Assembly (NCBI GenBank): GCA_030425485.1
Contig: JAUIAM010000002.1
Span: forward strand, 1-64,000
Origin: Verrucomicrobiia bacterium
GTDB taxonomy: Bacteria > Verrucomicrobiota > Verrucomicrobiia > Opitutales > Cerasicoccaceae
Direction of reading: 5' to 3'
DNA: 64,000 bases
Part shown: piece after piece, positions 37,692 through 60,387 of the stretch
Layout: every line of letters starts with the position of its first letter
Position numbering within the stretch: position 1 is the first letter of the stretch
Program-made: the position numbers and the translations under genes
The notes under the pieces: generated by a model
What the model was told of the DNA's origin: nothing
The model's input: the letters and a program-made list of their open reading frames with translations, nothing else
Databases searched by the model: none

Positions 37692-37713
37692 ATTTTTATA
37701 AGAAAAAGTGATC

Positions 37714-44139: not shown

Positions 44140-45318
44140 TCAGCGATATAATTTTAAAAACAAGGCAGTATCATTCCAAACCAGACTGGGTGAGAAGTGC
44201 GAGTTGAACCCGACGAAGTCGACCTCTAAATGATCAAGGCTGGATGGCGATGGTCCGCAGCCACTCTTGTATTCAATAAGTTTGATCGAGTCGTGAAATC
44301 CAGAATAAGGCAAGGCAGATCCATCGACCTGCAATCTAGCCCCTGGTTGGGTAAATAAAATCGCCTGGCTCGCCGTCACTGTGGTGAGGTCGACTGGATT
44401 GAAATCATCCCCTTCGCCAAGTTGGAATTCAAGCGTACCGTTGCCGCCAACCTCCCAAGCTTGGCTTTGCCCCCTAACGTTTGCCCTGGAGCCCACAGTC
44501 AATATGCCTGATCCACCGGCATCGGCTAAATCCTTATCTCGCCCCACTTTCACATTTGCGGTCAAAGTCCCTCCTTTGATCGTCGCCACCCCCACGGGGG
44601 AGTTTTCAATATTACGGGCATTGCCCACTGAAAAATAGTAATGAACATCGCGCAGCCCGTCAGTGACCGTCAGCGATCCGCCCGTTTGCTCGAAGATTCC
44701 ATTGCGACTATGAATGCTTTTGACCAAAGCACCGACAAAGAAATTTGCATTATCATTGCGGTTCAACTGCGAATTAGTTCCCGTAGCCACATAAACATCG
44801 CCCCCTTCGATGCTCATCTTTCCAGTCGCATCCACCCCAATGCCCAGATGAATCCCACTAGTCGTGACGATCGTCCCGGAAGTAATGCGCAAGTGTCCGC
44901 TGGAGTAGTCACCCACTCCCACCTGGATGCCACCTCCCTTTTCAGAAGATGTGCTAAAATGTCCCCCGTCAATATGTATCAAGCCTCTGCCTTGTGGTCC
45001 AAGAGCAACTTGGTGGGCACCGATCATGGTATTGGCCGCATTTATCCCACCAGATGAAAGAATCAATGTGCCACCCTCCGCATGGTTGCCGACATTCACC
45101 CTTGCGTGCGAGGTACCTTTCTCGCTTTTGACCACCGAATAACCGTCAAAAATCCGAGCGACCGAATTATCCGTAGGAACGGAGCTAGAGTCCCAAGTCG
45201 TAGGTTCATCCCACCCTCCACTGGATACGGCCTGTTGGGCTTGCAGGGGCAGCCCACAGAAGCTCAAGGCAGCCATCAGTTGAATTGGAAAATAAGTCAA
45301 GGTGCATTTAGATTTCAT
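44140..45318 (-). CDS. beta-helix autotransporter-repeat type surface protein, no sorting tail
   Basis: A 392-residue exported protein with a signal peptide (MAALSFCGLPLQAQ). The body from ~30 to 330 is a repetitive right-handed beta-helix-like stretch with recurring GG-x-L/I-x-I/V-x-x-G units (GGTLILSSGGINAANTMIG, GHLRITSGTIVTTSG, GKMSIEGGDVYVATG, GGSLTVTDG). This pattern is seen in Verrucomicrobia PEP-CTERM and autotransporter-like proteins. Unlike its neighbour at 45722 it ends WNDTALFLKLYR, with no PEP-CTERM motif or membrane segment. It is probably secreted or loosely attached. It resembles that neighbour closely in repeat style and in the WTDTEMLL/WNDTALFL near the end, so it is likely a shortened paralogue. 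Confidence 0.82.
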   Translation of the reverse strand: MKSKCTLTYFPIQLMAALSFCGLPLQAQQAVSSGGWDEPTTWDSSSVPTDNSVARIFDGYSVVKSEKGTSHARVNVGNHAEGGTLILSSGGINAANTMIGAHQVALGPQGRGLIHIDGGHFSTSSEKGGGIQVGVGDYSSGHLRITSGTIVTTSGIHLGIGVDATGKMSIEGGDVYVATGTNSQLNRNDNANFFVGALVKSIHSRNGIFEQTGGSLTVTDGLRDVHYYFSVGNARNIENSPVGVATIKGGTLTANVKVGRDKDLADAGGSGILTVGSRANVRGQSQAWEVGGNGTLEFQLGEGDDFNPVDLTTVTASQAILFTQPGARLQVDGSALPYSGFHDSIKLIEYKSGCGPSPSSLDHLEVDFVGFNSHFSPSLVWNDTALFLKLYR

Positions 45319-45721: not shown

Positions 45722-46963
45722 TTAAGATGAGCTGACCGAACGACGGCGACGTGCCGCAACCAAGCCCAGAGTCGCCAGCCCAAAGATCAATGCTTTTGCA
45801 GAAGGCTCCGGAATCATTACCGTCAAGAGCATCTCGGTATCCGTCCAATCGACACTCGGCATTAAAGCCGGATCGAAGTTAGCAAAGTCGATCACAATAT
45901 TGCCCAAGCTAAATTCAGTCGGCCCTCTGCCACTGCCATAAGTAGCCAAGACAATCGTGCCATCGAAATCAGACGCCAGATTGCTGCCGTCAATTGTGAT
46001 CAACGACCCAACGTCAAAACTCAACGCAACTCCGGACGTCGCTGCCGTCAAGTCGATCGCGTTAAAACTGGTGGTGCTGCCGAGCAGAAACTCCAATTCA
46101 CCATCCCCACCAATCATCAATGTCGAATCCGACGCGATAGCTGAAAGATTTGCGTTTGGACCGATGGATAGCTTGCCCACGCCATTCACGCCGTTTGACG
46201 TATTTCCGAGTATGATATTCCCATTCACCGAAGTGAAACCGCCTGTCAACGAGGCTGTACCAGTTGGGTTGTGGGTAGCACTCGTCGCATTACCGATCCG
46301 CAGATTACGATCAATTACCACGAAGCCCGAAGTCTGATTGAACACACCCTGATTGGCATTCGGAGAAACACGCCCAACGTAAAAATCGGTATCCACTTGC
46401 AGCGATCCACCACTCACATTCAGAGTGCCCGTCGATCCAACGCCACTTCCCAGAGATAAATTCGAGAGATTTTGAATAACTCCGGAACCGCTCAGATTCA
46501 CAGTGCCGTTGGAATTGGTGCCATAACCAGCCGTCAACCAGCCAACACCATCGCCATCCAGTGTCCCCCCTGTCACGTTCAACACCCCAATCGAATCGGT
46601 CTCAGCACCAATCCGCATGGCACCCGACCCATTGGCCGCCGTTTGCAGGCTCCCGCCGGAAATAGTCAACGTTCCGTTGCGGGTAAAGGTATTCCCGCTT
46701 CCATCAAAGTCACTCCCGATTTCAAGATTACCGTAACGCCCTTCGTCGTCATCGCCGATGTAATCGACGGAATATCCATTGCCAATGGCAATCGTATCCC
46801 CTTGCCCTGGATCACCTGCCGGGCTCCACGTAATCCCAGGCCAGTCACCACTGCCCTGAGCAGACTTATCAACAGCGTGAACAGTTGAAGAAATAAAGCA
46901 ACTCGCGACTCCGAGCAGTAGAAAGGTGGGAGATGAGGCGGACAGTTGTGACTTATACTTCAT
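45722..46963 (-). CDS. beta-helix repeat protein with PEP-CTERM tail
   Basis: A 413-residue exported protein. A signal peptide is followed by a beta-helix-like repeat region (residues ~40-330): GTLTISGGSLQTAANGSGAM, GVLNVTGGTLDGDG, GTVNLSGSGVIQNLSNLSLG, GTLNVSGGSLQVDTD. Its C-terminus is MIPEPSAKALIFGLATLGLV plus AARRRR, a PEP-CTERM sorting signal. It is a surface or matrix protein anchored or released by exosortase. The neighbour at 44140 has the same repeat style but no sorting signal. A TGTATACA box lies 71 bases upstream (47034), and a strong terminator lies downstream. Confidence 0.9.
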   Translation of the reverse strand: MKYKSQLSASSPTFLLLGVASCFISSTVHAVDKSAQGSGDWPGITWSPAGDPGQGDTIAIGNGYSVDYIGDDDEGRYGNLEIGSDFDGSGNTFTRNGTLTISGGSLQTAANGSGAMRIGAETDSIGVLNVTGGTLDGDGVGWLTAGYGTNSNGTVNLSGSGVIQNLSNLSLGSGVGSTGTLNVSGGSLQVDTDFYVGRVSPNANQGVFNQTSGFVVIDRNLRIGNATSATHNPTGTASLTGGFTSVNGNIILGNTSNGVNGVGKLSIGPNANLSAIASDSTLMIGGDGELEFLLGSTTSFNAIDLTAATSGVALSFDVGSLITIDGSNLASDFDGTIVLATYGSGRGPTEFSLGNIVIDFANFDPALMPSVDWTDTEMLLTVMIPEPSAKALIFGLATLGLVAARRRRSVSSS

Positions 46964-47453
46964 AGCAGGGACCTTTAGTTAGTTTTATATTACGCACCAT
47001 AAATACGATACTGAATCCAGTAATGTATTTACATGTATACATTAAATCTTATGAGGCAAATTAGGTCAAGTTCTTTATAGAAAAAATTTGCGATGTACCT
47101 TTTCCATGCACGTGAGGATGTAAAAACTGCAAACACAGCTAGCCAGCATCTGCAATCGTCGAAAATATACTTGCGAGCCAATCCAACACACCGTAGTGTA
47201 TACCCCGATATGCACACTAAGTTTCAGTTCTCTTCCCCTGCCCCCTCCAGGATGAATGCCTTTACTCCCAATTGGTATCTTGGGCTGGAGCGCGAGCAGT
47301 ACTTTGGCCGGGGATGACCCGTAGCTCATAAGCGACCTGCCGGAGAAACGGGATCGAGGCAAAGAACCTATTCGAAGCTAAACCGACATTTCGAAGAAAG
47401 CAAAATCACAGGCCACCGATCGGCCTTCCCACTCACAAAATAGCGAATACTCC
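46964..47453. other. 490 bp divergent intergenic region
   Basis: Between the 413-residue PEP-CTERM gene and the alpha/beta hydrolase gene. It is AT-rich in its left part and contains TGTATACA at 47034 and the variant TGTATACC at 47197. No convincing coding sequence. Confidence 0.55.
47034..47041. promoter_or_regulatory. TGTATACA palindrome, site 3
   Basis: Perfect copy in context ATGTATACAT, 71 bases upstream of the PEP-CTERM beta-helix gene start. A near-copy TGTATACC lies at 47197, on the side of the hydrolase gene. Confidence 0.6.
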
Positions 47454-48788
47454 ATGAAACAGAAACTTTCCAATAGAATCACATCCAAGGCCATGAGTGC
47501 TAGTGCGGCCTTGCTGATCTTAATACTCTTGGTCCTGGGCGCATCGCAGCCCGCCGCAGCGCAGGAAAGATCCGGACCCTGGCCCGAACAGCGTGCGCAG
47601 ATCGAGCGCGGATGGCTTGAACTGCTGGGAGACTTCCCCTCGGAAATCCCAGAATTGAAGCCGACGATACGGAAAGTCACCTTCGAGCCAGGCTGCCCTT
47701 CTGAACGCCTGTCCAAGCCTCAGCTTCAGGTTCTCAAAGAACAGATGGCGGAAGAGGACGGCAGCATCGAACGCTACCATGTCAGCTTTCAGACCGAAGC
47801 AGACGACCGTGTGACCGCATGGCTATTAGTACCCAAAGAAGCCTTTCAACAAGAAACCCCGGCCATGATTTGCATTCACAGCACAACGAAAGGGGCCGGC
47901 AAGGATCAAGTGATCGGACTGTCTGGCAAAACCGCACTCAATCTGCCGGACACCAGCGAGGGTGGCAGATCCTACGGCCTGTACCTGGCTCGGCACGGCT
48001 ACGTGACCTTGAGCATTGATCTGCTGACCGACGGCGAGCGTGTCGAGCCCGGCGAAGCTCCTCTGCAGTCACGACCGTTTTATGAACGCAATCCCGAGTG
48101 GTCTATCGTCGGCAAGAATACCTGGGACATCATGCGCAGTGTCGATTTTCTCGAGACCCTAGATTTCGTCGACTCCAATCACATCGGATGCATCGGACTC
48201 TCGCTGGGCGGGCACACCGCTGTTTTCGCTGGTGCCTTCGAGCCGAGAATCGCGGCTACTGTGAGCATCGGTGGCGTTTTAGACTGGCACCGGGGGACTG
48301 AACATTGGTCCCGGGAAAAAGGGAAATACATTTACATCAAGAAATACCGCCCCTACATCGACAATCCCGATCTCCAAGTACCAGCGGACTTCGACGAACT
48401 TATGATGATGGTCGCACCACGCCCGCTGCTGATTCTCTCCAGCGAATGGGAGTTTTACAACCGCCGTGGGCTTCTGAAAAAATGCCTCGAGGTGGCACAA
48501 GTTTATCTCAACTGGAAAGATACCGAGGGCCTACCCAGTGTGTTGGAGGCGAGGAAGAACCGGAAAAGTTATGCCAAAAGCTTGAGTTACTACAAAGAGC
48601 GCAGTGACTACTCGCCCGAAAAAGTGGATAGAGATATCGGCCTACTCGGTGCTGGCGACTGCTTTACGTGGTTTTCCTATCCTGGCGGCCACAGTTTCCC
48701 GCCGGTGGCGAGGGCTTATACATTCGCCTGGCTCGACCGCTGGCTTGATCGCGACAACAGCTGGGAAGGCAAATACGCCCGCCCATAG
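47454..48788 (+). CDS. secreted alpha/beta hydrolase (dienelactone hydrolase/acetyl esterase-like)
   Basis: A 444-residue exported hydrolase. A signal peptide (LLILILLVLGASQPAAAQ) precedes the alpha/beta-hydrolase fold. The nucleophile Ser sits in GCIGLSLGGHTAVF (Ser 250), and a late His in SYPGGHSFPPVARAYTF fits the catalytic histidine. An Asp or Glu in a strand before it would complete the triad. The fold with a long N-terminal segment (ERYHVSFQTEADDRVTAWLL) resembles secreted acetyl- or feruloyl-type esterases near polysaccharide enzymes. It is followed at 53 bases by the second propeller protein, so both may be one unit. Substrate unknown; deacylation of a plant or algal polysaccharide is likely by context. 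Confidence 0.82.
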   Translation: MKQKLSNRITSKAMSASAALLILILLVLGASQPAAAQERSGPWPEQRAQIERGWLELLGDFPSEIPELKPTIRKVTFEPGCPSERLSKPQLQVLKEQMAEEDGSIERYHVSFQTEADDRVTAWLLVPKEAFQQETPAMICIHSTTKGAGKDQVIGLSGKTALNLPDTSEGGRSYGLYLARHGYVTLSIDLLTDGERVEPGEAPLQSRPFYERNPEWSIVGKNTWDIMRSVDFLETLDFVDSNHIGCIGLSLGGHTAVFAGAFEPRIAATVSIGGVLDWHRGTEHWSREKGKYIYIKKYRPYIDNPDLQVPADFDELMMMVAPRPLLILSSEWEFYNRRGLLKKCLEVAQVYLNWKDTEGLPSVLEARKNRKSYAKSLSYYKERSDYSPEKVDRDIGLLGAGDCFTWFSYPGGHSFPPVARAYTFAWLDRWLDRDNSWEGKYARP

Positions 48789-48841: not shown

Positions 48842-50251
48842 ATGCACTGGCCCAGCTTACTGAGTTTGTCACTGACGATCGTCGCCTTCACTTCACTGGT
48901 CGCCCAGCCCATTTATATTGGATCGCAGCGCGAACTCTTTGTAGACGATTACCTCGTTGAATCTCTTACCGATGTGGATCTGCGACTCCACGCCCCAAGA
49001 AAAGCGCCTCGTGCCGAATCACCGCTACCCGTCCGACACGCGATGACTGTAATCAAGGACGGCGATTATTACCGTGCGTATTACCGTGAGGCTGACCCCA
49101 GCTACAAAGGGCCTATCCATTCAGGGCATCCCGGTGAAACGCTTTGCTACGCGGAGAGTCTGGACGGCCATAACTGGCGGCTGCCCAATCTCGGATTGCA
49201 TGAAGTGGGCGGGACAATAGAGAACAACGCGATTTTAACCAATATGCCGCCCTATTTGCACAACTTCATGCCCTTTCTGGATACCCGTCCCGGAGTCGAT
49301 CCAGAGGAACGTTACAAGGCGGTGGCTGGATACCCCGGCAAGGGGGATAAGCGGGGCACGACCATGGAAGGAATCGGACTCTACGGCTTTGTCTCTCCAG
49401 ACGGAATCAATTGGACGATGCAGGGAGAGATTATCCCCTACCAACCGGAATGGCGCCATGCCTTTGACTCGGCCAATGTGGCCTTCTGGTCCGAGGCAGA
49501 AAACAAATACGTCTGTTACTTCCGCACCTGGACGCCCGGCACCCGCCTGCGTACCGTTGCGAGAAGCACATCATCGGATTTCATCGAGTGGAGTGAGCCC
49601 GTGGAAATGGCTCCCAACCTACCCGGCGAACATCTGTATACCACCATGACACATCCCTACGTCCGTGCACCTCACATCTACATCGCACTCCCAACACGCT
49701 TCGTCCCTGGAGAAAAGGATTCCGCCGATGAGGTGAGGAAGAACACCACCGATGTCCTTTTCATGTCCAGCCGTGCTGGCTCCAACCACTATGACCGACT
49801 CTTCACCGAAGCCTTCATCCGACCGGGGCTAGATTCAAAGCAATGGACCAACCGGGCCAACTTCGTCGCCAACAATGTCCTGCAAACCAGTCCTACAGAA
49901 TTGTCGATCTATCACCGCAGCGGCGACCGCTACGTCATCCGGACGGACGGTTTTATTTCCGTCCACGCCGGAGCCAAGGCTGGCAGCCTGACGACAAAGC
50001 CCCTTGTTTTCACGGGAGAGATGCTGGAATTGAATTACTCCACAAGTGCAAACGGATTTGTCCAGGTGGAACTCATCGATCTCGAAGACAATGTCATCGC
50101 CACAAGCAAACGCATCACAGGTGACGCTATCGATGAACCGGTAGAATGGATTAACCTCATAGACATCCTGGATTTTTCCGATCAACCAGTCCGGCTGCGA
50201 TTTTCGATGAAGGAAGCCGACCTCTATGCATATCGGTTCTATGATGAATAG
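48842..50251 (+). CDS. secreted beta-propeller (GH43/GH32-like fold) protein, copy 2
   Basis: A 469-residue exported protein, paralogous to the one at 37714-39174. Signal peptide MHWPSLLSLSLTIVAFTSLV to AQP. It shares IGSQRELFVDDYLVES near the start, DGDYYRAYYREADPSYKGP, FMPFLDTRPGVDPEERYKAVAGYPG, NVAFWSEAENKYVCYFRTW and FTEAFIRPGLDSKQW. Blade-like strands recur about every 60-70 residues. The paralogue shows the same order, including the conserved SIYHRSGDRYVIRTDGF stretch. It may hydrolyse arabinosides, fructosides or similar, but catalytic residues are not assignable from sequence alone. It follows the alpha/beta hydrolase gene and is convergent with the FAD/Fe-S dehydrogenase gene. Confidence 0.82.
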   Translation: MHWPSLLSLSLTIVAFTSLVAQPIYIGSQRELFVDDYLVESLTDVDLRLHAPRKAPRAESPLPVRHAMTVIKDGDYYRAYYREADPSYKGPIHSGHPGETLCYAESLDGHNWRLPNLGLHEVGGTIENNAILTNMPPYLHNFMPFLDTRPGVDPEERYKAVAGYPGKGDKRGTTMEGIGLYGFVSPDGINWTMQGEIIPYQPEWRHAFDSANVAFWSEAENKYVCYFRTWTPGTRLRTVARSTSSDFIEWSEPVEMAPNLPGEHLYTTMTHPYVRAPHIYIALPTRFVPGEKDSADEVRKNTTDVLFMSSRAGSNHYDRLFTEAFIRPGLDSKQWTNRANFVANNVLQTSPTELSIYHRSGDRYVIRTDGFISVHAGAKAGSLTTKPLVFTGEMLELNYSTSANGFVQVELIDLEDNVIATSKRITGDAIDEPVEWINLIDILDFSDQPVRLRFSMKEADLYAYRFYDE

Positions 50252-50356: not shown

Positions 50357-53314
50357 TTATTCGCATTCCCGTAATGCGGCATGCAAAATTTCAACCGGAT
50401 GCTGCGCTATCCGCCCGGTGCCATCATGAATTTGGTGGCGGCAGGATGTACCTGGTGCCGCAATAATTGTCTCGCTGTCGGCAGACATAATGGCGGGGAA
50501 CAACACCAAATTTCCGATTTGCTGAGAGAGCGAATAATGCTCTTTTTCGTAGCCAAACGAACCTGCCATGCCGCAACATCCACTGGGGATCGGTTCCACT
50601 GTATAATTCGCAGGTATCTGAAGTGCCTCGATGCTACCGGACTGGCCCACAATCGCTTTTTGAAAGCAATGTCCATGCAGTTTGATGTGTCTTTTTTTGT
50701 CTGTAAATGCATTGCTTAATATCCGCCCTGCAGCCGCTTCCCTGGCGATAAAATCTTCCACCATCATACAATGATCTGCCATTGCTCTGGCCTTGTCTTT
50801 GAGTTCAGGCTCCGCCAAATCCAGTGCCTCGTCGCGAAAGGTGAGCACGCCAGAGGGCTCAACTCCTACTAAAGGCTGCTCGGAGCTGATTTTTCCCCCC
50901 AAGGCACGCAAATTTCGATTGATGATTTTTTTAGCCTGCCGAACCAGCCCTTTCGATAGCCAGGTTCGGCCGCTTTCTCCACAAATCGGCAACTCAACGG
51001 AATAGCCCAGACGCTCCAATAAATCGACTGCCTTAACCCCAATCTCAACATCATTAAAATGGGTAAACTCGTCATTAAAGAGCCAAACCTTGCCCACCTG
51101 ACCTGCATTTGGATGTGGCACATGATCCTTAAACCAGCGAGCCAAAGTTTGCCGAGGCAATAGCGGAATCGTTCGATCAGGGTGAAAACCGACGGCACGA
51201 TTTAGAAGACGCCGCATCCATTTGGTTCCAAAGAGAGCGTTCCACGCCCAGGGAGCCAGGGAGGCCAATTTCTGGGAGTGGGCAAAGGTGGCGATCATCC
51301 TTGCCCGCAAGGGAACCCCATTGGCGTCGTAATAATGCTGCATGAACTCAGCTTTGAGCTTGGCCATATCGACCGTCGAAGGACATTCCTTCTTACAGCC
51401 CTTACAAGAAAGACAAAGATCGAGCACCTCCTTAACATCCGGATTGTCAAAAACACTCTTGCGTGCGTTGGCAGGCCCTTTTGTAAGCGCATCACGCAAG
51501 AGGTTCGCCCGCGCCCTTGTGGTATCTTTCTCATCGCGGGTGCCCATGTAGCTGGGACACATGGTTCCACCGGCCAATTGGGTCTTACGGCAATCGCCTG
51601 AGCCGTTGCACATCTCCGCCGCACCCAGCATTCCATTCGATGCAGACCAATCAAAAATAGTCTCGGGTTCCTTCGTAACCTGCCCTGGGGTATAGCGCAA
51701 GTTGGTATTCATGGCAGGTGTATTAATGATTTTATTTGGATTGAGTATCCCTGCTGGATCCCAGGTGTTTTTAACCGACTGGATCAAAGCGTAATTCTTC
51801 GAGCCAATCATGCTCTCAAGGAACTCACCACGAAGTCGGCCATCGCCATGCTCACCGGAAAGGGAGCCACGGTATTCGCGCACCAACTCGGCTACAGCCT
51901 GAGCCACTTCCCGGAACATCCGGTTCCCCTCATCCGTTTTCAAATTGATGATCGGGCGGAGATGAATTTCCCCCGAACCGGCATGGGCGTAATGGACACA
52001 ACTGAGGCCAAATCGTTGTTTCAGCCGCAGGCTGAACTCTGCGATATAGCTGGGCAGGTCTTCTACCCGCACGCAGGTATCCTCAATCACAGGAACCGGT
52101 TTAGCATCTCCCGGCATATTGGACAGAAGCCCCAAACCCGCCTTGCGGAGGTTCCAAATCTTCACTGTATCCGCCCCAAAGAGGACCGGATAGGCGTAAC
52201 CAAGCCCCGCCTCTCGCATATCGCGCTCCAGCTGGTCGGTCACTTCCAGGACTTCCGAGCGGTTGTTTTTGCGAATTTCAGTGATCAGGACAGCACCTGG
52301 CTTTCCCTCAATAAAAAAGCGATTTTCGCGGTGTTCGATACTTCGTTCGGTACAGTCGAGAATGTGGTGATCGATCAGCTCACAGGCGTAGCATTCATAG
52401 CGTACGGCAATCTGAGTCGCCCGAAGCGCTTCATCGATGGTCTTAAAGTGCGCGCAATGTAGACCTGTCGACTCAGGAGGAAGCGGATTACAATGCAGTT
52501 TCATCTCCAGGACAAAGCAGAGCGTTCCCTCACTACCTGCGATGAGCTTGCTGAAATTGAAAGCTCGATCAGAATCCGAGTCAAAACAGTCAGCATCCAT
52601 AAGGCAATCGAGCGCGTAGCCGGTGTTGCGTCTGGGAATATCCGGGTGCGGAAATTTTTTGAGAATTTCCTGGCGATTCTCCGAATCTGAAAGCATACCA
52701 CGTGTTTCTCGGTAAATCTGGGCCTCCAGCGAATTCCCTTCGCACTTTGCATCGAATTCATGCTTCGAAAGCGGGCCGAAAACCGCCTTCGATCCGTCGG
52801 AAAGCAGAGCAGTCACTTCGATGGTATGCTCACGCGTCGAACCATACATGACCGAGTTCGAGCCGCAGGAATTATTCCCGAGCATACCGCCGACCATGGC
52901 CCGGTTTTGCGTGGATGTTTCGGGGCCGAATAAGATTCCGTGAGGCCGGAGCGCATCATTCAATTCGTTCCGGATGACACCAGGTTGACAGCGCACCCAT
53001 CCCTCCGCCGAATTAATTTCCAGTATCCTTGTAAAATGCCGGGAGACATCTACTACGATTCCATTGCCAACCACCTGTCCGGCGAGGGATGTCCCGGCCG
53101 TGCGGGGAATCACTCCGACTTTATGATCTCTGGCAAATTGCAGGATTTCACACAGATCCTGCTCGCTTCGAGGCAATGCCACAGCCAACGGCATTTCTTG
53201 ATAGGAAGACGCATCGGTTGCATAAATACGCCGCATCAATACGGAATGGTGCAGCTCCCCTTCCAGCTTCTGATTTAAGGCTTCCAGATCACTTAATTCC
53301 GGTGACTTCTTCAT
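50357..53314 (-). CDS. FAD-linked 2-hydroxyacid dehydrogenase with Fe-S and CCG domains (YdiJ-like)
   Basis: A 985-residue cytoplasmic or membrane-associated oxidase. Residues ~30-260 are a PCMH-type FAD-binding domain (GVIPRTAGTSLAGQVVG and MVGGMLGNNSCGSNSVMYGS). A C-terminal FAD-linked region includes HAGSGEIHLRPII and GSLSGEHGDGRLRGEF. Then comes a ferredoxin-like pair, CNGSGDCRKTQLAGGTMC and CLSCKGCKKECPS. Last are CCG-type heterodisulfide-like motifs, LHGHCFQKA and PSGCCGMAGSFGYEKEHY. The fused order is that of YdiJ, a D-2-hydroxyglutarate or D-lactate oxidising enzyme. ATG 53314 was chosen because the longer frame starts with GTG and gives a poor N-terminus. It is co-directional with the symporter, SDR and other genes that could yield lactate or 2-hydroxyacids from a deoxysugar. 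Confidence 0.9.
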   Translation of the reverse strand: MKKSPELSDLEALNQKLEGELHHSVLMRRIYATDASSYQEMPLAVALPRSEQDLCEILQFARDHKVGVIPRTAGTSLAGQVVGNGIVVDVSRHFTRILEINSAEGWVRCQPGVIRNELNDALRPHGILFGPETSTQNRAMVGGMLGNNSCGSNSVMYGSTREHTIEVTALLSDGSKAVFGPLSKHEFDAKCEGNSLEAQIYRETRGMLSDSENRQEILKKFPHPDIPRRNTGYALDCLMDADCFDSDSDRAFNFSKLIAGSEGTLCFVLEMKLHCNPLPPESTGLHCAHFKTIDEALRATQIAVRYECYACELIDHHILDCTERSIEHRENRFFIEGKPGAVLITEIRKNNRSEVLEVTDQLERDMREAGLGYAYPVLFGADTVKIWNLRKAGLGLLSNMPGDAKPVPVIEDTCVRVEDLPSYIAEFSLRLKQRFGLSCVHYAHAGSGEIHLRPIINLKTDEGNRMFREVAQAVAELVREYRGSLSGEHGDGRLRGEFLESMIGSKNYALIQSVKNTWDPAGILNPNKIINTPAMNTNLRYTPGQVTKEPETIFDWSASNGMLGAAEMCNGSGDCRKTQLAGGTMCPSYMGTRDEKDTTRARANLLRDALTKGPANARKSVFDNPDVKEVLDLCLSCKGCKKECPSTVDMAKLKAEFMQHYYDANGVPLRARMIATFAHSQKLASLAPWAWNALFGTKWMRRLLNRAVGFHPDRTIPLLPRQTLARWFKDHVPHPNAGQVGKVWLFNDEFTHFNDVEIGVKAVDLLERLGYSVELPICGESGRTWLSKGLVRQAKKIINRNLRALGGKISSEQPLVGVEPSGVLTFRDEALDLAEPELKDKARAMADHCMMVEDFIAREAAAGRILSNAFTDKKRHIKLHGHCFQKAIVGQSGSIEALQIPANYTVEPIPSGCCGMAGSFGYEKEHYSLSQQIGNLVLFPAIMSADSETIIAAPGTSCRHQIHDGTGRIAQHPVEILHAALRECE

Positions 53315-53385
53315 AAATAATTTGCGTTGCGCTGTACCCCCGAAGGGCAAACAAAAAACCCACTTCACCTCCCTTGTAAGCTCAC

Positions 53386-54867
53386 TTATTCAGGCAACTT
53401 ACCTCGCACTCCAACTCCCATAATCAAGGCTGTCCCAAACATTCCAATGACTGCCGTCCACATGGAGCTAATAATAGGATACCACGGATAAGCAGCATTG
53501 AGTTGAGGAGAAAAGGCAGCACATGATGCAAACAATGCTCCCCCTATCAAACCGCTGATTACGTATTTGCCCGATAATTTCAATGGAAGGACAGCAAAAA
53601 CCAACGCAATTCCGAGCGGGCCAACAAACAATCCGAGTAGCCGCTGCGACATATCAAAAATTTGTCCAAGATGAGCGACCAGTCCAGCGGATAAAGTGGC
53701 CGTTATTCCAATCAGGAGGCTCAGCACACGAGCCAAGATAAGGCGCGCTTTTTCGGATTGTTTTTCTTTCCAGCTATTGGGTAACAAATCCATTTCAATC
53801 GCTCCGGAGAGAGCGTTAATTCCGCTGGTCATACTACTCATGGTTGCAGCCAACAATGCAGCGAGGATCATTCCCGCAACGCCCACAGGCAACTGGCTGG
53901 CCACGTAGTAAGGGAAATACTGATCCGTGTTAGCCGGCAAACTCGCGGGATCTTGAAAAAGGCTCCAAGCCTTCAAACATACTCCAATCGCACAAAGCAC
54001 ACTTAACACGATGAATACCCCGATACAGTTTACCAGATAGGAGTGCTTAACCTCTTCAATAGAAGCCGAAGCCATATAGCGTTGTAGTGACATCTGGTCA
54101 CCAAGATACATGGCTGAAGAGGCAAATAGTCCGCCAATAACTGCCGTCCATGTTGTCACCTTCACCGAAGGGTCTAGAGAGAAATCAAAGAGCCGAAGCG
54201 AATCGGTATCCTTCAGCATACGCCAGGTTTCTTGATACGAAACTGGCAAATTATAGATAATGAAGCCAATCGTAATCAGACAGCCTGCAATGATGACTAG
54301 CATCTGCATCGCATCAGTCACCATAACCCCACGCAAGCCACCAAAAGCCGAATAGACCGTACTGATCAATCCAACAAGCAATACCACCTGCCAGAAATAA
54401 TCATCACCCAAGCCGGTGGCACCTAGAATGGCGATGGTCGGCGCGTAGATGAGCACCGCCATCCAGCCCAGGCGCAAAATCACATAAATGAAGCTGGCCA
54501 GCTTGCGTACACTTGCGCCAAAGCGAATCTCCAAAATCTCATAAGGTGATCGCCATTGCCTACGAATAAATAAAGGTACGAAAAAATAACAAATCAGGTA
54601 ATACTTAAAGATAAGGGTGATAGTTGTAATAAATATAACAAGCCCATGATTAATAACAATGCTTGGATATGCTAACAGCGAAATCCCACTAAAGAAAGTA
54701 GCCGCTATACTTAACCCAACAATCGTGCTGCCGAGAAACCCCGGCAAAGTTCCCTTGGAAATATAAAAATCGTCGGTCTCCTCCTGCTTACCTCGCGCCA
54801 GAATCCCAACGGCAGCTGTAAAAAGAAGAAACAGAACGATCAGGATGTAGTCAATCGCATGCAGCAT
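53386..54867 (-). CDS. sodium:solute symporter (SSS family)
   Basis: A 493-residue transporter of normal SSS length with about 13 membrane segments. It begins MLHAIDYILIVLFLLFTAAVG. The conserved SSS regions LSIAATFFSGISLLAYPS, RFGASVRKLASFIYVILRLG and ALLAATMSSMTSGINALSG are all present. It probably imports a sugar or monocarboxylate with sodium. It lies between the FAD/Fe-S dehydrogenase gene (71 bases downstream) and the SDR gene (upstream), all on the minus strand, and so appears to be the uptake system of that catabolic unit. Confidence 0.92.
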   Translation of the reverse strand: MLHAIDYILIVLFLLFTAAVGILARGKQEETDDFYISKGTLPGFLGSTIVGLSIAATFFSGISLLAYPSIVINHGLVIFITTITLIFKYYLICYFFVPLFIRRQWRSPYEILEIRFGASVRKLASFIYVILRLGWMAVLIYAPTIAILGATGLGDDYFWQVVLLVGLISTVYSAFGGLRGVMVTDAMQMLVIIAGCLITIGFIIYNLPVSYQETWRMLKDTDSLRLFDFSLDPSVKVTTWTAVIGGLFASSAMYLGDQMSLQRYMASASIEEVKHSYLVNCIGVFIVLSVLCAIGVCLKAWSLFQDPASLPANTDQYFPYYVASQLPVGVAGMILAALLAATMSSMTSGINALSGAIEMDLLPNSWKEKQSEKARLILARVLSLLIGITATLSAGLVAHLGQIFDMSQRLLGLFVGPLGIALVFAVLPLKLSGKYVISGLIGGALFASCAAFSPQLNAAYPWYPIISSMWTAVIGMFGTALIMGVGVRGKLPE

Positions 54868-54887
54868 AGCAAAAAATGTAGCTTAGA

Positions 54888-55673
54888 TTATTTGGCTGTA
54901 TAGCCGCCATCTACTGGAATGATGGCTCCGGTAACGTAAGCGGAGGCCTCGGACGCGAGGAAGACGATAGCACCCTTCAAATCCGAATCATTCGCCAACC
55001 GCCCCAGTTGGGTACGGTCTGAGTAATTTTTAACAAACTGCTCGGGTTGCTCCGGTGATTGCAAACCACCGGGATTGATACAATTACAACGGACACCGAA
55101 ACGCCCAAAATAAGAGCCGCAAAAGCGCGTGTAATTGACCATCCCTCCTTTATGAAAAAAATACTCAGGCGACCAACCTGAATTCATATCCGTACCATCG
55201 TAATTGTGATGCTCCACCCCTGTCACCCCCATCATGGAGCCAATATTAATGATCGAACCGGCACCCTTTTGAACCATCACTTTACCCATGGTCCGGGTAA
55301 TCGCATGCAAGCCGGATGCGTTGATACGCCAACTACGGTTGAAATCCTCGAGCGGATCATCCCATTTTCCCGTGACCCTAAGAACGGCATTGTTGACCAA
55401 TACATCGACTGTTCCCGCGCGCTCTAGCAAAGTGTCACGCAAGGTCAGGATCGAAGCTTCGCTCTCCAAATCCAGTGGTAACGCAGTGACTTTTTCGCCC
55501 TTCTCACGGTGTTCGCGTGCGACTGCCTCCAAGCCCGCCACGTTTCGCGAAGCGATGTAAGTATCAGCTCCGGCCTCCGCCAGCGCCGCAACAATTTGGC
55601 GACCATATTTACCTGCTCCACCGCTCAACAGCGCTACTTTTCCTTCCAAAGAAAACAATTTACGAACGTGCAT
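54888..55673 (-). CDS. SDR family oxidoreductase (probable sugar or sugar-acid dehydrogenase)
   Basis: A 261-residue classical SDR. Glycine-rich nucleotide motif LSGGAGKYGRQIVAAL; NNAVL structural motif; catalytic Ser 146 in IINIGSMMG, Tyr 171 and Lys 175 in PEYFFHKGGM. The end YVTGAIIPVDGGYTAK is the usual SDR finish. Related enzymes dehydrogenate L-fucose or 2-keto-3-deoxy-L-fuconate, and the setting of a symporter, an FAD/Fe-S dehydrogenase, a lactonase-type amidohydrolase and an HpcH aldolase supports such a role. It is first in the minus-strand unit. A TGTATACA box lies 37 bases upstream of its start. Confidence 0.9.
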   Translation of the reverse strand: MHVRKLFSLEGKVALLSGGAGKYGRQIVAALAEAGADTYIASRNVAGLEAVAREHREKGEKVTALPLDLESEASILTLRDTLLERAGTVDVLVNNAVLRVTGKWDDPLEDFNRSWRINASGLHAITRTMGKVMVQKGAGSIINIGSMMGVTGVEHHNYDGTDMNSGWSPEYFFHKGGMVNYTRFCGSYFGRFGVRCNCINPGGLQSPEQPEQFVKNYSDRTQLGRLANDSDLKGAIVFLASEASAYVTGAIIPVDGGYTAK

Positions 55674-55709
55674 AATTAAAGTTGAATAGAGTTAACTCGA
55701 CAGCCTCTG

Positions 55710-55717
55710 TGTATACA
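55710..55717. promoter_or_regulatory. TGTATACA palindrome, site 4
   Basis: Perfect copy in context GTGTATACAT, 37 bases upstream of the SDR start at 55673. Confidence 0.65.
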
Positions 55718-55974
55718 TAAACATACACAAAGAAAAGCCACCTACTGTCAATTTAATTTTGATCCGAACACCGCGCACCTCAACGCTGAGCCAGCTATAT
55801 CATATTTTGCAGCCGGGATCCTTCTGCGTAAAATCCATCTTCCCAATCTTCATGGAGTGATTTATAGCCTGGGTAAATATTTAATTCAAGACTTGAATTA
55901 AATATTTACATTCGGACAATTTCACACTTATATATCGATCAATTATTACGTGTGGACAAACCACCCAAGCGGCG

Positions 55975-55982
55975 TGTATACA
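55975..55982. promoter_or_regulatory. TGTATACA palindrome, site 5
   Basis: Perfect copy in context GTGTATACAC, 24 bases upstream of the aldo/keto reductase start at 56006. Confidence 0.65.
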
Positions 55983-56005
55983 CACTAATACGCAAAAAGT
56001 GTACG

Positions 56006-56962
56006 ATGACCACAATACATGCAAAATCCACCCCTGATCCCATACGCAGACAAGCCCCGGCGTATTCCAGATTGACCCTGGGTACAGTCCAGTTCGGCTT
56101 GGCATACGGGATCGCCAATCAAAGCGGTAAACCGGACGAGAAAACCTGCCGGGAAATCATAGCCGAAGCCTATGCCGCAGGCATCCGCTGCTTCGATACA
56201 GCCGCCGCGTATGGCGAAAGTGAAAGCGTGCTGGGTCGTGCAATGACGGATCTGAAGATATCGGAATCGGTTACTGTGGTAAGCAAATGTCGGCCGCTAG
56301 ACCCTAAAATTTCCGACCCGAAGACGATCCGCTTGCAATTGGAAGCATCCATCGCCGATTCGATTAAACGCCTAAGAGTCGAGCATATCCCGGTCTTTCT
56401 CTTCCACCGCGATGCGGATTTGCCTTGGATTGAGGTTTTGGCTGCATTGCGTGAACGAGGGTTAATCCATCGCATTGGCATTTCCGTCGACACCGCCAGT
56501 GGAATCGAAGCAGCGGTCAAAGAGCCGCAGGTCGAGGCCATACAACTACCGCATAACCTCTTCGACCACCGATTTAGCGGAACGCAGTATTTTAAAGAAG
56601 AAGAGAGCGAACGCCGTCTACTGTTTGCACGCAGCGCTTTTCTACAGGGCTTACTCCTCATGCCTGAGGCACGCATTCCAGTCGGACTCCAGTCCGTAAT
56701 ACCAACCCGTCGGCGCGTGGAGCAAATCGCTGCCGCTGCTGGCCTGAGCATGCCGGAACTCTGCTTGCGCTACAGCCTTAGCTTCCCTGCGGTGGACAGT
56801 GTCTTGATCGGTGTCGACAATGTGAAGCAGCTCAAAGAGAATGTCGCCATGGCCGCACGTGGCCCCCTACCGGCCGATGTACTGCAACAAATCAAGCAAG
56901 CCGTACCCGACTTCCCCGAATCCATCGTCCGTCCTTCGCAATGGCATAAAAGCAATGGGTAA
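56006..56962 (+). CDS. aldo/keto reductase (sugar dehydrogenase-like)
   Basis: A 318-residue AKR-type TIM barrel. The catalytic tetrad is visible as Asp 64 and Tyr 69 (CFDTAAAYGESESVLG), Lys 94 (VVSKCR) and His 134 (FLFHRD). The C-terminal NADP/NAD-binding stretch includes SVLIGVDNVKQLKENV. AKR enzymes of this type, such as D-threo-aldose 1-dehydrogenase or L-fucose dehydrogenase, oxidise the anomeric carbon of deoxy-sugars to lactones, which fits the lactonase-like amidohydrolase next to it. I used ATG 56006 as start; the longer frame back to 55952 covers the TGTATACA box. It is convergent with the amidohydrolase gene. Confidence 0.88.
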   Translation: MTTIHAKSTPDPIRRQAPAYSRLTLGTVQFGLAYGIANQSGKPDEKTCREIIAEAYAAGIRCFDTAAAYGESESVLGRAMTDLKISESVTVVSKCRPLDPKISDPKTIRLQLEASIADSIKRLRVEHIPVFLFHRDADLPWIEVLAALRERGLIHRIGISVDTASGIEAAVKEPQVEAIQLPHNLFDHRFSGTQYFKEEESERRLLFARSAFLQGLLLMPEARIPVGLQSVIPTRRRVEQIAAAAGLSMPELCLRYSLSFPAVDSVLIGVDNVKQLKENVAMAARGPLPADVLQQIKQAVPDFPESIVRPSQWHKSNG

Positions 56963-57129
56963 TGCCAGCGGCTGGCCCTGCTGACATAAAGTTGCCCACA
57001 CCAGCGCTTGCGAGGCATGATCACAGCGGTCAAATCCAGCCTGGCTGGAGGAAGGTATTTTGCTCGTACGTCGCTTTCAGATCATTGTCCAGCGAATCAA
57101 ATTTTTACTAGACCTGATAATCGATTGAT

Positions 57130-58083
57130 TCAATGCGAGTCAACAGACTTGCCCAACCATTTAAGCGTGTTAAGATGGCTAACCTTGGCTCTCAATGTTT
57201 CCGGTAACGCATTGAGTACTGCAACCTCCTCACGGTAGCTGCTGCGCATTTGCAATTTAGCATCTTCGTATGAATAGAACGGTGCGTCGCTGCCCCATAT
57301 CAATGAATCCGGGAAGGCTTCAGCCAAGTCCTGAAGAACTCGGGCGGGATCATTATAATCCGAGGGGAAACGCTCTTGCGGAATAGCAACCGCTTTCTTG
57401 TTATCCACTGCGCAGGCACAATGAATAATGTGCGCCGAACAGTCGAACCAAGTGTTGGGCAGCTCGGCTACGCGTTTCAGGCTTTCGTGATGAAAGCGGC
57501 AAGAATGTGCCAGAATAAAGCGGACATCTGGATTGGCCTGGGCTACAGCCAGAATGTCAGAGCACTGCGACCAAATATCATCCGGCGCGATGCTGGAATG
57601 AATCAAAAAGGGCAAATCGTGGGCCTTGGCGTATTCCACCATACAACTACCTTCCTCAAGTAAGGAGCGTATGGGTGACTGCAGGATGGTGGGTTGAATT
57701 TTAATACCATGAACGGGATATTCCGCGGGCAGTTTTTCCCACTCTTTAACCTGAGCCGCTGGCATACGCATTGGGTCAGCCATGAGAAAAGGCCAAAGCC
57801 GACTACGACGCTCCGGAACCGAACGCATAATGTCTTCGCAGAGACGCCGATTCTCAAATGCGTACGGAACATGAGGTGTATCTTTCGGCAATTCGATACG
57901 ATTATAGCGCAAGCCCTCAATATCTAAGGCCATGTATGCAACGAAAGGAAAAACCACCCAGGCATCGATGCCAGAATCTCCTGCTTCGTTGAACAAGCGC
58001 TCAAGGTCGAGAGCATAAGGGGACCAGTTCTGCAAGTAGAACAGCGGGTCGACCCCGATGTGGACGTGGTTGTCGATTCTCAT
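57130..58083 (-). CDS. amidohydrolase-family protein (sugar-lactonase-like)
   Basis: A 317-residue metal-dependent hydrolase of the amidohydrolase-2 group. The N-terminal HVH is in MRIDNHVHIGVD, later metal or active-site His residues are in LPFLIHSSIAPDDIW and RFILAHSCRFHHES, and the Asp is in LIWGSDAPFYSYEDA near the end. This family includes L-fuconolactonase and L-rhamnonolactonase, as well as decarboxylases and other lactonases. Position between an aldo/keto reductase and an HpcH aldolase makes a sugar lactonase likely. No export signal is present. A TGTATACA box lies about 210 bases upstream. Confidence 0.85.
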   Translation of the reverse strand: MRIDNHVHIGVDPLFYLQNWSPYALDLERLFNEAGDSGIDAWVVFPFVAYMALDIEGLRYNRIELPKDTPHVPYAFENRRLCEDIMRSVPERRSRLWPFLMADPMRMPAAQVKEWEKLPAEYPVHGIKIQPTILQSPIRSLLEEGSCMVEYAKAHDLPFLIHSSIAPDDIWSQCSDILAVAQANPDVRFILAHSCRFHHESLKRVAELPNTWFDCSAHIIHCACAVDNKKAVAIPQERFPSDYNDPARVLQDLAEAFPDSLIWGSDAPFYSYEDAKLQMRSSYREEVAVLNALPETLRAKVSHLNTLKWLGKSVDSH

Positions 58084-58495
58084 GGTTCGGTTACTGATTG
58101 CGGACTTTTGTCATACTTAGCACAGCTACAATGACTTCACAGCTTACAGCAGGTGCCTTGTTTCGCGGATTTCGACGCAGCGGTAAAAGGCGATGGCTCA
58201 AATGGGCTTCTTCTGGGGTAGCCGCCCTGGCAAGCAGTGCACTCGGTAACTCAGCTTCAGCTAGCCACCCCGCCCTGCCGGAGAACATCCATGTATACAT
58301 ATGGCGATGTTAGTTTTTATCAAGAATTATATTCACATTGCTTCGTGCAAGAGTTCTGTGAATCAAACTTTTTAGGTATAAGAGCGACACAACCGCCTTC
58401 CCCCCGCCGAGAACTGTGAGCTATCACTAAGCAAAATTCAAACGGCTCAATTGCTCATCTCATAAGCATAGAGACCATCCAAGATAATTCATAGG
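58084..58495. other. 412 bp intergenic region
   Basis: Between the amidohydrolase start and the aldolase stop. It holds the TGTATACA box at 58292 and a GC-rich patch (58120-58290) flanked by AT-rich DNA. Short frames are present on both strands, but none looks like a gene. Confidence 0.5.
58292..58299. promoter_or_regulatory. TGTATACA palindrome, site 6
   Basis: Perfect copy in context ATGTATACAT, about 210 bases upstream of the amidohydrolase start. Confidence 0.55.
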
Positions 58496-59308
58496 TTAGC
58501 GACCGTATATCCCCTCACATTCAGCCGGCGGCACCTCGACCTCAGCGAACGCACTCGCCAATGACTTACAATAATTGGTCAATCCCACAACATCTGCACC
58601 GACATTGATAAAGCGGTAGCCAAGGTCGATAAGCTCAGTAAGATTGGACGGACTACCAACCGTGCCTGCAAATTTACCATGCTTAAGAGCAACCTCTGCC
58701 ACAAGCTTGCGTGCATATATTAAGCGGGGATCATCAAACATACCTGGCGCTCCAATGGCGTGACTAAAATCGCCAGGACCAAAAAACAGCATATCAACCC
58801 CAGGCAGGGCGGCGATTGCGTCCAACTCCTCTAAAGGCTCAGGGTCCTCAATCTGCAAAGCCACAAAGCGCTCTTGGTTGGCGGTTGCAAGGTACTGCTT
58901 GAAAGGAATCCCACAATACGCACCATCGGCATTTCCTCCGTCAACTGGTCGCATACCAAGCGGTTGAAAACGGGTCATGCGCACCACGTTCTTGGCATCC
59001 TCCAAACCCATGCAGTGCGGCACCATAATCCCAGCCGCATCCATTTCCAGTGGACGTATGTAATCACTGTAACTGCCACGAGGGACTCGCACCAAAACAT
59101 CGACGTCATGCGCCTTAGCCGCCCAAACCATAGATTCGATATCGCCCATCCCGTTCGGCACATGCTCCAGGTCGGGCCAAAGACAATCGACCCCGGACAT
59201 CGCAGCAATCTCCGCAACCCGAGCGTCTTTTAAGTTAAGCTTAAAACTGGAAACGACTTCACCCGAACGCAATTTTCTCAATACACGACTAGGTCTCATT
59301 TTTTTCAT
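58496..59308 (-). CDS. HpcH/HpaI family aldolase
   Basis: A 270-residue class II aldolase. The family landmarks are present: an acidic metal-binding pair in VDCLWPDLEHVPNG and VALQIEDPEPLEEL, the MVPHCMGLEDAKNVV strand, and MLFFGPGDFSHAIGAPG with the active-site Gly/Asp. The N-terminus has KLRSGEVVSSFKLNLKDARV, like 2-keto-3-deoxy acid aldolases. Such enzymes cleave 2-keto-3-deoxy-L-rhamnonate or -fuconate to pyruvate and lactaldehyde. In this gene set that would feed lactate or lactaldehyde oxidation. A TGTATGCA variant (59329) and the divergent Gfo/Idh/MocA gene lie just upstream. Confidence 0.9.
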   Translation of the reverse strand: MKKMRPSRVLRKLRSGEVVSSFKLNLKDARVAEIAAMSGVDCLWPDLEHVPNGMGDIESMVWAAKAHDVDVLVRVPRGSYSDYIRPLEMDAAGIMVPHCMGLEDAKNVVRMTRFQPLGMRPVDGGNADGAYCGIPFKQYLATANQERFVALQIEDPEPLEELDAIAALPGVDMLFFGPGDFSHAIGAPGMFDDPRLIYARKLVAEVALKHGKFAGTVGSPSNLTELIDLGYRFINVGADVVGLTNYCKSLASAFAEVEVPPAECEGIYGR

Positions 59309-59328
59309 AATTTAGTTTCGCCAACTAG

Positions 59329-59336
59329 TGTATGCA
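59329..59336. promoter_or_regulatory. TGTATGCA, variant of the TGTATACA palindrome
   Basis: One mismatch to the box, 21 bases upstream of the HpcH/HpaI aldolase start and in the divergent gap to the oxidoreductase gene. Confidence 0.4.
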
Positions 59337-59433
59337 CGATAATACATGCTTGAGTCAAGACAGCTTTTGCGTCAATTCTTCAATTCAGCCACTCATTACC
59401 AAAACAAGAATACCAAAGAACTATACATTCCCA

Positions 59434-60387
59434 ATGAACAAGCCAATCGTTGACAAAGAAGAGCTTCGCCTCGCTATCTTCGGAGCCACTCCGGGCAACG
59501 CACACCCCTACTCATGGAGCGCAATGTTCAACGGATACGATCGAGAGAGAATGACGCGTGAGTGCCTCTATCCAGCGATCCCGACCTATCTCAACAAACA
59601 GCCAGAAGCCACCCTCACCATCCCAGGCGCCAAAGTCACTCATGTATGTTGCACCGGAGAAGGAGAGTTCACAGCCGAGCACGTCGCCGCATGCGCAAAC
59701 ATTCCTAACGTAGTGACAAGCCCAGAGGAAGTCATTGGCCATGTCGATGCGGTGATTATTGCGACGGACATCGGCTCCGAGCACGTCGAGCGCTGCCGCC
59801 CTTTTGTCGAAGCAGGTGTGCCTATCTTCGTCGACAAACCCATGGTTGACAACCCAGCCGACCTAGCGGTGTTCGACCAATGGATTGAGCAAGGGAGCCC
59901 TATTCTAAGCAGCTCGTCGATGCGCTACACAAAAGAATTCCTGCCCTACCGCATGTCGACCCACAACCTCGGACAGCTCAAACTCGTCACGATGAGCATG
60001 GCCAAATACTGGGAAACCTACGGCATACACGCAATCGAAGCAATCTATCCCATCCTCGGCCCAGGATTCCTCACCTGCCGCAACATCGGCGACAAGAACC
60101 GCAATTTCGTACACTTCACGCACCGCTGCGGCGCCGATGTTTTCATTTACGTGCGCAAAGACATGGGTGCCGGAACAGGGCTTTTGACCCTTCAAGGCAG
60201 CGACGGTTTCGACACTGTTAAATCGATGGACACCTTTTATGCTTTCAAAACCCAGTTGGAGCACTTCGTCCGGTACCTCCGAACCGGCGTGCGACCGTTC
60301 CCTTACCAGGAAACGCACGAACTCATGCGAATGATTATCGCCGGGCTCAACAGCCGAGAAGCAGGCGGCGTGGAGGTAGAGGTTTAG
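59434..60387 (+). CDS. Gfo/Idh/MocA family oxidoreductase
   Basis: A 317-residue sugar oxidoreductase. The Rossmann start is RLAIFGATPGNAHPYSW; the lysine motif is VPIFVDKPMVDNPADL (DKP form). The C-terminal domain includes MSMAKYWETYGIHAIEAIYPIL, carrying the catalytic His. ATG 59434 was preferred over an earlier in-frame ATG 34 codons upstream because the latter lies in the TGTATGCA region and adds a non-conserved tail. It is divergent from the HpcH aldolase gene, so the two share a regulatory region. It probably oxidises a sugar or cyclitol in the same pathway. Convergent with the partner gene at 60514. Confidence 0.88.
   Translation: MNKPIVDKEELRLAIFGATPGNAHPYSWSAMFNGYDRERMTRECLYPAIPTYLNKQPEATLTIPGAKVTHVCCTGEGEFTAEHVAACANIPNVVTSPEEVIGHVDAVIIATDIGSEHVERCRPFVEAGVPIFVDKPMVDNPADLAVFDQWIEQGSPILSSSSMRYTKEFLPYRMSTHNLGQLKLVTMSMAKYWETYGIHAIEAIYPILGPGFLTCRNIGDKNRNFVHFTHRCGADVFIYVRKDMGAGTGLLTLQGSDGFDTVKSMDTFYAFKTQLEHFVRYLRTGVRPFPYQETHELMRMIIAGLNSREAGGVEVEV

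Follow-up and report, generated by a model that had tools for sequence, protein, structure and literature searches.

A candidate regulon for catabolism of nonulosonic acids or closely related 2-keto-3-deoxy sugar acids in a Verrucomicrobiia bacterium

Canonical catabolism of N-acetylneuraminic acid (Neu5Ac) runs through nanA, nanK and nanE, and a canonical nan cluster has been defined as NanE together with NanA and NanK within 10 open reading frames (ORFs) (PMC10570557, PMC2693436). The genes considered here lie in a 64,000-nucleotide stretch of DNA (the window), positions 1 to 64,000 of contig JAUIAM010000002.1 (C40 in our numbering) of a Verrucomicrobiia bacterium, and form a predicted regulon at 36.9-60.4 kb that we suggest, with moderate confidence and from its sequence, to serve the catabolism of an exogenous nonulosonic acid (NulO, the class of sialic, pseudaminic and legionaminic acids) or a closely related 2-keto-3-deoxy sugar acid. 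The likeness to the canonical route would lie in release by a sialidase, in uptake of the sodium:solute symporter (SSF) type, which is one kind of carrier there, and in aldol cleavage of a 2-keto-3-deoxy acid to pyruvate, whereas the window regulon has an HpcH-type class II aldolase and no NanA-type (DapA) gene, carries additional short-chain dehydrogenase/reductase (SDR), aldo/keto reductase (AKR) and Gfo/Idh/MocA oxidoreductase (Gfo) genes, and sits in a genome without NanE.

Two further comparators come from NulO biosynthesis. In Acinetobacter, the AKR-domain protein EpaA and the SDR EpaB convert pseudaminic acid to 8-epipseudaminic acid, as seen by nuclear magnetic resonance (PMC12053666), and a NulO cluster has also been described in which a dehydrogenase gene follows a cytidylyltransferase-AKR gene (PMC7371886). 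The window regulon likewise holds an AKR and an adh_short_C2 SDR, the latter (w36 type) being sister to SDRs encoded beside such AKRs, but its surroundings are catabolic and the genome has no NulO synthesis genes. In legionaminic acid loci with a PtmA/PtmF-type SDR and a Gfo (PMC4481668), both genes stand beside an acylneuraminate cytidylyltransferase gene, as for example in Sulfitobacter, and SDR1 of the window falls in the same clade as the SDRs of such loci, though the Gfo in Sulfitobacter is no close relative of the window one, and the genes of the window regulon have uptake and aldolase genes as neighbours instead. Non-phosphorylative L-fucose/L-rhamnose pathways, which an earlier note on this DNA had proposed, share SDR/AKR, Amidohydro_2 and HpcH aldolase enzymes as classes; the window regulon differs in having no dehydratase, and family-level matches to these pathways lie elsewhere in the genome.

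A shared operator and the extent of the regulon

The earlier note had grouped seven genes at 50357-60387 by shared sequence boxes, and all seven are long ORFs at the positions and of the families it gave (Table 1). The boxes themselves are real: the window contains six copies of TGTATACA where 0.42 would be expected, a count that 0 of 100 shuffles reached, and the 3.81-Mb genome holds 19 copies compared with 6 for the reversed control, with 7 of the 19 in C40:42528-64672. Aligning the neighbourhoods of TGTATACA yields a 20-bp unit, GTGTATACANNNNNATACAC, that is longer and roughly palindromic; its operator form is GTGTATACA-N5-ATACAC and contains the reported box. With up to 2 mismatches GTGTATACANNNNNATACAC is found at six sites in the genome, every one in C40:42517-59347, and three of the six (42517, 47023 and 47196) lie to the left of the seven genes, so that the boxes stand where they were reported but are not confined there. 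Because of these operators the start of the regulon was moved left, to about 36.9 kb, which includes the sialidase gene, and the whole of 36.9-60.4 kb is, as predicted from its sequence, one regulon sharing an operator. The sialidase gene and the second SDR gene, SDR36894, belong to a single minus-strand run of four genes behind the operator at 42517. Since the longer ORFs of the AKR and the Gfo run across operators, ATG 56006 and ATG 59434, respectively, are their probable starts; the true start of SDR36894 is probably near 37667, and that of the GDSL/SGNH gene is uncertain, with a second TGTATACA core at 42777.

Just right of the window a GntR/FCD gene (C40:65004-65732) is preceded, at about 350 bp, by a seventh operator-like site (C40:64654, 3 mismatches), and the FCD-type GntR protein that this gene encodes is probably the regulator of the 36.9-60.4 kb region. 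Large minus-strand genes for secreted, pilin-cassette-like proteins adjoin the regulon (60514-61446, and from 61454 onward to C40:64543), and the operator-like site falls between these and the GntR gene.

Table 1. Genes and operator sites of the predicted regulon (window coordinates; E-values unless stated otherwise).
Feature	Position	Strand	Match or remark
Second SDR (w36 type, SDR36894)	36894..37841	-	last gene of sialidase run; adh_short_C2 1.9e-51
Secreted 5-bladed-propeller hydrolase-like protein (w37 family)	37714..39174	-	no Pfam match
FGE-sulfatase-domain protein	39183..40310	-	PF03781 1.5e-49
Sialidase-type glycosidase, LamG lectin and BNR propeller, GH33-like	40412..42328	-	best PDB match sialidase 1eur 1.5e-18
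Operator	42517..42536		between sialidase run and SGNH/GDSL gene; 2 mismatches to 20-bp motif
GDSL/SGNH esterase, possible O-deacylase	42776..43600	+	PF13472 2.7e-26
Two secreted repeat proteins	44140..45318 and 45722..46963	-	no Pfam match; second with PEP-CTERM-like tail at end
Operator	47023..47042		motif search; near esterase and secreted repeat protein
Operator	47196..47215		motif search; near esterase and secreted repeat protein
Secreted alpha/beta-hydrolase esterase, glucuronyl/acetyl-xylan esterase type	47454..48788	+	PF22244 1.3e-11, AXE1 1.7e-8
Second propeller hydrolase-like protein	48842..50251	+	53% identical to 37714..39174
FAD + 4Fe-4S D-2-hydroxyacid dehydrogenase type, YdiJ/GlcD-like	50357..53368	-	FAD_binding_4/FAD-oxidase_C/Fe-S; 571 bits to YdiJ model, cut-off 1350
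Sodium:solute symporter, anion/carboxylate branch	53386..54867	-	5nv9 1.8e-42, NIS 4e-43
SDR1	54888..55673	-	first gene of SDR1-SSF-FAD/Fe-S run
Perfect operator	55709..55728		36 bp upstream of SDR1 (SDR1-SSF-FAD/Fe-S run); 0 mismatches
Operator	55974..55993		13 bp before probable AKR start; 1 mismatch
AKR, KidO-like branch	56006..56962	+	PF00248 6.3e-35; ORF from 55952
Amidohydro_2 TIM-barrel enzyme	57130..58083	-	PF04909 6.9e-20
TGTATACA core only	58292..58299		about 210 bp upstream of amidohydrolase
HpcH/HpaI class II aldolase, presumed pyruvate-releasing step	58496..59308	-	PF03328 3.3e-22; PDB relatives HpaI/YfaU/GarL
Operator	59328..59347		between HpcH and Gfo genes; 2 mismatches
Gfo/Idh/MocA-type oxidoreductase	59434..60387	+	PF01408 7.6e-8; ORF opens at 59332

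No kinase is found in the operator-controlled gene set. Between the amidohydrolase and HpcH genes, a short plus-strand ORF (58131-58310), read by eye as a signal-peptide-like segment followed by a stop, is possibly the remnant of a secreted protein.

Relatives in nonulosonic acid loci and the substrate class

The lead towards NulOs comes from the gene contexts of relatives on annotated plasmids and from a tree of 48 SDRs. Nine of the 12 plasmid relatives of SDR36894 lie in NulO biosynthesis loci (H72, H75-H79, H81-H83), as do rows 1-4 among the 8 contexts viewed of 46 for SDR1. For the AKR (6 contexts viewed, 20 listed of 410) the five highest-scoring of those listed are in pseudaminic or sialic acid loci and the sixth is not, and of four Gfo matches the only one covering at least 80% adjoins genes for an SDR, an acylneuraminate cytidylyltransferase, NeuB and NeuC. 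By comparison, control searches with two further SDRs from this genome brought 835 and 886 plasmid records and NulO loci in 0 of 4 contexts viewed; the phage collection contained no Gfo relatives, and its AKR and SDR matches were generic. In the tree, which replaced an earlier one with fewer controls (the organism's long-branch C11 SDR being omitted) and gave the same outcome, SDR1 and 13 other SDRs of HpcH modules form a clade (100/100) that adjoins the SDRs of NeuB-carrying archaeal and sphingomonad loci (94/81), and the w36 SDRs are sister to SDRs beside the AKR relatives in pseudaminic/sialic acid loci (97/92). One clade (100/99) takes in 29 NulO-locus or module SDRs and a Klebsiella SDR control, while 16 of the 17 control SDRs, including the genome's own fucose-dehydrogenase-like SDR, fall outside it, as do two further SDRs of one Azospirillum locus.

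The proteins that would release, import and cleave the substrate are compatible with such an acid. The sialidase has the propeller, Arg triad and Tyr/Glu pair of glycoside hydrolase family 33 (GH33), with R238 (in YRIP), E445, R456, R539 and Y561 aligned or read; presumably R238, R456 and R539 make up the triad and Y561/E445 the nucleophile pair. The symporter is nearest to NIS, SMCT1 and 5nv9, which we take to be a sialic acid symporter (E 1e-43 to 1e-39), compared with 6.5e-21 at best for SGLT-type sugar carriers, and a relative with 61% identity sits in a Gfo-Gfo-HpcH-SDR operon (L162). In the case of the HpcH aldolase, His49, Arg74, Glu154 and Asp180, which we take to be the catalytic His/Arg and metal-binding Glu/Asp, are invariant in a 14-row alignment, and this supports a catalytically intact enzyme as predicted from sequence. 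NeuB (PF03102) has no match in the genome (control positive in 9 of 14), so this organism does not synthesise NulO by the known route, and NanE (PF04131) likewise has none (control positive in 8 of 14), so the canonical Neu5Ac route is not used. No NanA-type DapA lyase is present among the window genes scanned, and the nearest DapA seen (C40:68833-69810) reaches 144.6 bits to the NanA model, for which the cut-off is 281.

Other sugar acids that have no need of a sugar-acid dehydratase could account for part of this gene set, either unsaturated uronates from polysaccharide lyases, with the SDR turning 4-deoxy-5-keto uronate (DEH) into 2-keto-3-deoxygluconate and HpcH cleaving it, or 2-keto-aldonates cut by a hydroxypyruvate-type aldolase. 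The best NCBIfam models of SDR1 are gluconate 5-dehydrogenase and KduD (both below their cut-offs), HpcH-family hydroxyketoacid aldolases are distant relatives of the aldolase, the symporter is of anion type, and a glucuronyl-esterase-like protein is in the regulon. We nevertheless consider this explanation unlikely: no lyase Pfam family occurs among the window proteins scanned, the SDR clade points to NulO-type loci, and the sialidase heading the regulon would be left unexplained. Sulfo-sugar, D-apiose and L-glucose pathways were also weighed and dropped, as their key enzymes appear to be lacking.

The HpcH module in related genomes and the missing dehydratase

A search for the HpcH aldolase in 384 genomes of the class (E ≤ 1e-50) gave 27 matches outside the organism itself, and the neighbourhoods of 20 of these were examined, together with that in G152 (locus L096); low-quality ORF calls in GC-rich loci may hide genes in this survey. 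Of the 20 loci, 17 have a relative of SDR1 near HpcH, 11 one of the window Gfo, 10 a Gfo of a second type, 5 a GntR relative and 4 a w36-type SDR, and the FAD/Fe-S enzyme has no relative in HpcH loci. The box recurs with the module, as the 20 loci contain eight copies of TGTATACA in seven loci against 0.44 expected (maximum of 3 in 100 shuffles), and most of these sites precede a module gene or TonB receptor gene by no more than 100 bp. Relatives of the secreted w37 protein, whose profile weakly matches GH130/GH32/GH117-type structures, are present in 7 of the 20 loci; it and the second propeller protein of the regulon represent a Pfam-less secreted family that is common beside HpcH modules.

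The amidohydrolase was tried and rejected as a functional guide, in that its relatives split into two groups, neither of which explains the HpcH partners. Neighbours in the first group are Gfo, FGGY kinase, Glucosamine_iso and DeoR genes, and the second keeps company with SDR2, a D-threonine-aldolase-like enzyme, RidA, MlrC and IclR. In L147, L149 and L146 the closest relatives (56-85%) occur with Gfo and FGGY kinase genes, partly also with Glucosamine_iso, DeoR or class III aminotransferase genes, and this company suggests an amino-sugar context. Near HpcH-SDR modules there are also fusions of Amidohydro_2 with a class III aminotransferase (L155:5614-7914 and L174:2131-4677). To the right of the window a second cluster (C40:65004-76403) contains GntR-FCD, aldehyde dehydrogenase, SMP-30 lactonase, DapA-type, amidohydrolase and SDR genes along with a 3-hydroxy-D-aspartate-aldolase-like pyridoxal-phosphate (PLP) enzyme, RidA, MlrC and IclR; its amidohydrolase is about 51% identical to that of the window, and the amidohydrolase-SDR-PLP-RidA-MlrC-IclR set recurs in many Verrucomicrobia. 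That the neighbourhood is a matter of chance, with at least two unrelated small pathways under one regulator, HpcH-SDR-Gfo forming one module and the amidohydrolase, AKR and FAD/Fe-S enzyme belonging to others, would fit the different company of the amidohydrolase relatives, the FAD/Fe-S enzyme that is without relatives in HpcH loci and the AKR with its one distant relative. It is quite unlikely in our estimate, given that the same 20-bp operator is found at the SDR1, AKR, HpcH and Gfo promoters and that both SDRs, the AKR and the Gfo independently indicate the same kind of locus elsewhere.

The earlier note saw no dehydratase and looked to an enolase-superfamily gene elsewhere with the same box; the absence holds for the regulon, but of the enolase-superfamily genes in the genome (four over the family cut-off and a fifth match, on C55, below it) none is near an operator with up to 2 mismatches, nor has the single IlvD-type gene such an operator nearby. 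Five enolase-superfamily seeds found no enolase-type dehydratase in 22 related loci (the 20, L096 and L102, which overlaps L167), so that the HpcH module recurs in other Verrucomicrobia without one, and an IlvD seed matched in one of the 22, L157, about 7.5 kb away. A missing dehydratase can signal a wrongly guessed substrate class, and none would be needed for the predicted regulon because its substrate would already be a 2-keto-3-deoxy acid.

In a pathway along the lines of the earlier note, the AKR or SDR would form a lactone from L-fucose, L-rhamnose or another aldose, the amidohydrolase would open it, a dehydratase encoded at some other place would yield the 2-keto-3-deoxy acid and HpcH would cleave that. 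The HpcH family does include 2-keto-3-deoxy-L-rhamnonate aldolase, to whose model the window enzyme scores 94.4 bits (cut-off 441), four enolase-superfamily genes exist in the genome, and AKR-superfamily L-fucose/D-arabinose dehydrogenases have been described (PMC6336799). The two GH78-type proteins that had made L-rhamnose a plausible input are present in the window (2999-6034 and 17818-20151), though some 30 kb distant and lacking a nearby operator. For the amidohydrolase, the AlphaFold model (pLDDT 86) is nearest by Foldseek to 3cjp, then to the COG3618 structures 4dlf/4do7, which we take to be a fuconolactonase target, and further to dihydroorotase and decarboxylases, a generic metal-dependent TIM barrel in which lactonase, dihydroorotase and decarboxylase folds are not separated. 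At 1e-5 the amidohydrolase matched no NCBIfam model, and so no fuconolactonase model; by sequence in the PDB its alignment profile gave chance matches only, and neither it nor the Gfo had a match by phmmer.

Better candidates for a fucose pathway lie on another contig. The L-fuconolactonase model NF052480 matches C56:67326-68189 (125.5 bits, below the cut-off of 400), which adjoins an L-fucose-dehydrogenase-like SDR gene (195.4 bits, cut-off 300) in a separate fucose-type cluster (L029, C56:66529-73000) that further encodes a symporter, GntR, a malate/lactate-type dehydrogenase and a sulfatase; there is a TGTATACA core at C56:72806 in this cluster and no adjacent dehydratase. L-rhamnose isomerase RhaA is encoded at C56:101531. 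SDR1 reaches 105.9 bits to the L-rhamnose dehydrogenase model (cut-off 400), L-fucose dehydrogenase is absent among the 25 models listed for it, and it and the genome's fucose-dehydrogenase-like SDR are in different clades. Enzymes of the GlcD/YdiJ type act on D-2-hydroxyacids, and the L-fucose/L-rhamnose pathways yield L-lactate, so the FAD/Fe-S enzyme is ill-suited to them. The single regulon, the intact HpcH-type aldolase, the absence of a kinase from the operator-controlled set and the lack of a dehydratase survive from the earlier interpretation; with the anion-type symporter, the SDR clade, and the enolase-superfamily genes of this genome and the related loci as described, a deoxy-hexose substrate appears very unlikely.

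A proposed route and its implications

In the NulO pathway that we propose, the secreted GH33-type sialidase, with accessory esterases and propeller hydrolases, would free the acid from a glycan, and the SSF symporter would import it as an anion. The two SDRs, the AKR and the Gfo may then oxidise, reduce or epimerise the acid, on the model of EpaA and EpaB, before the HpcH aldolase would cleave it by a retro-aldol reaction to pyruvate and an aldose-type remnant. The amidohydrolase could act as a lactonase or as a deacylase, and the FAD/Fe-S enzyme perhaps oxidises a D-2-hydroxyacid.

A number of results weigh against this route. Three of the 12 plasmid relatives of SDR36894 (H73, H74 and H80) and four of the eight SDR1 contexts (rows 5-8) are outside NulO loci, row 8 being a Klebsiella locus for catabolism that encodes a NanA-like lyase and a talarate-type dehydratase, and because this member with its dehydratase lies inside the SDR clade, the clade is not strictly NulO-specific. 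Of the two Gfo plasmid relatives (among four) whose contexts were viewed, the second is not in a NulO locus, and the HpcH plasmid relatives viewed, which are outside Verrucomicrobia, sit in ordinary sugar-acid catabolism operons. Compared with EpaA, the window AKR has only PF00248 and no cytidylyltransferase (CTP_transf_3) domain, and the likeness to EpaA and EpaB is drawn from locus neighbours; the AKR-type sugar dehydrogenases cited above also belong here. Among the 20 HpcH loci the AKR has one distant relative and is missing from most, the closest amidohydrolase relatives adjoin Gfo and FGGY kinase genes and not HpcH, and a search of the class's other 383 genomes brought no counterpart of the sialidase at E ≤ 1e-40, so that it was rejected as a conserved part of the module. 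Finally, the GntR assignment draws on proximity and orthologue neighbourhood.

A more specific version of the NulO pathway, in which the regulon degrades a bacterial NulO other than Neu5Ac (pseudaminic acid, legionaminic acid or an 8-epimer), enzymes that tailor NulOs (EpaB-like and PtmA-like SDRs, an EpaA-like AKR and the Gfo) have moved from biosynthesis to catabolism and HpcH replaces NanA, is in our estimate less likely than not. Full-text searches of open-access literature, which takes in few subscription journals and preprints, gave no described pathway of NulO catabolism beyond Neu5Ac. Bacterial NulO synthesis is widespread, and having a defined set of genes, with operator, aldolase and sialidase among its parts, opens the question of NulO catabolism to tests on purified enzymes. 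If this more specific version is true, the regulon would, with the other HpcH-SDR-Gfo modules of Verrucomicrobia, represent a route that lets environmental bacteria feed on one another's sialic-acid-like capsules and flagellar sugars.

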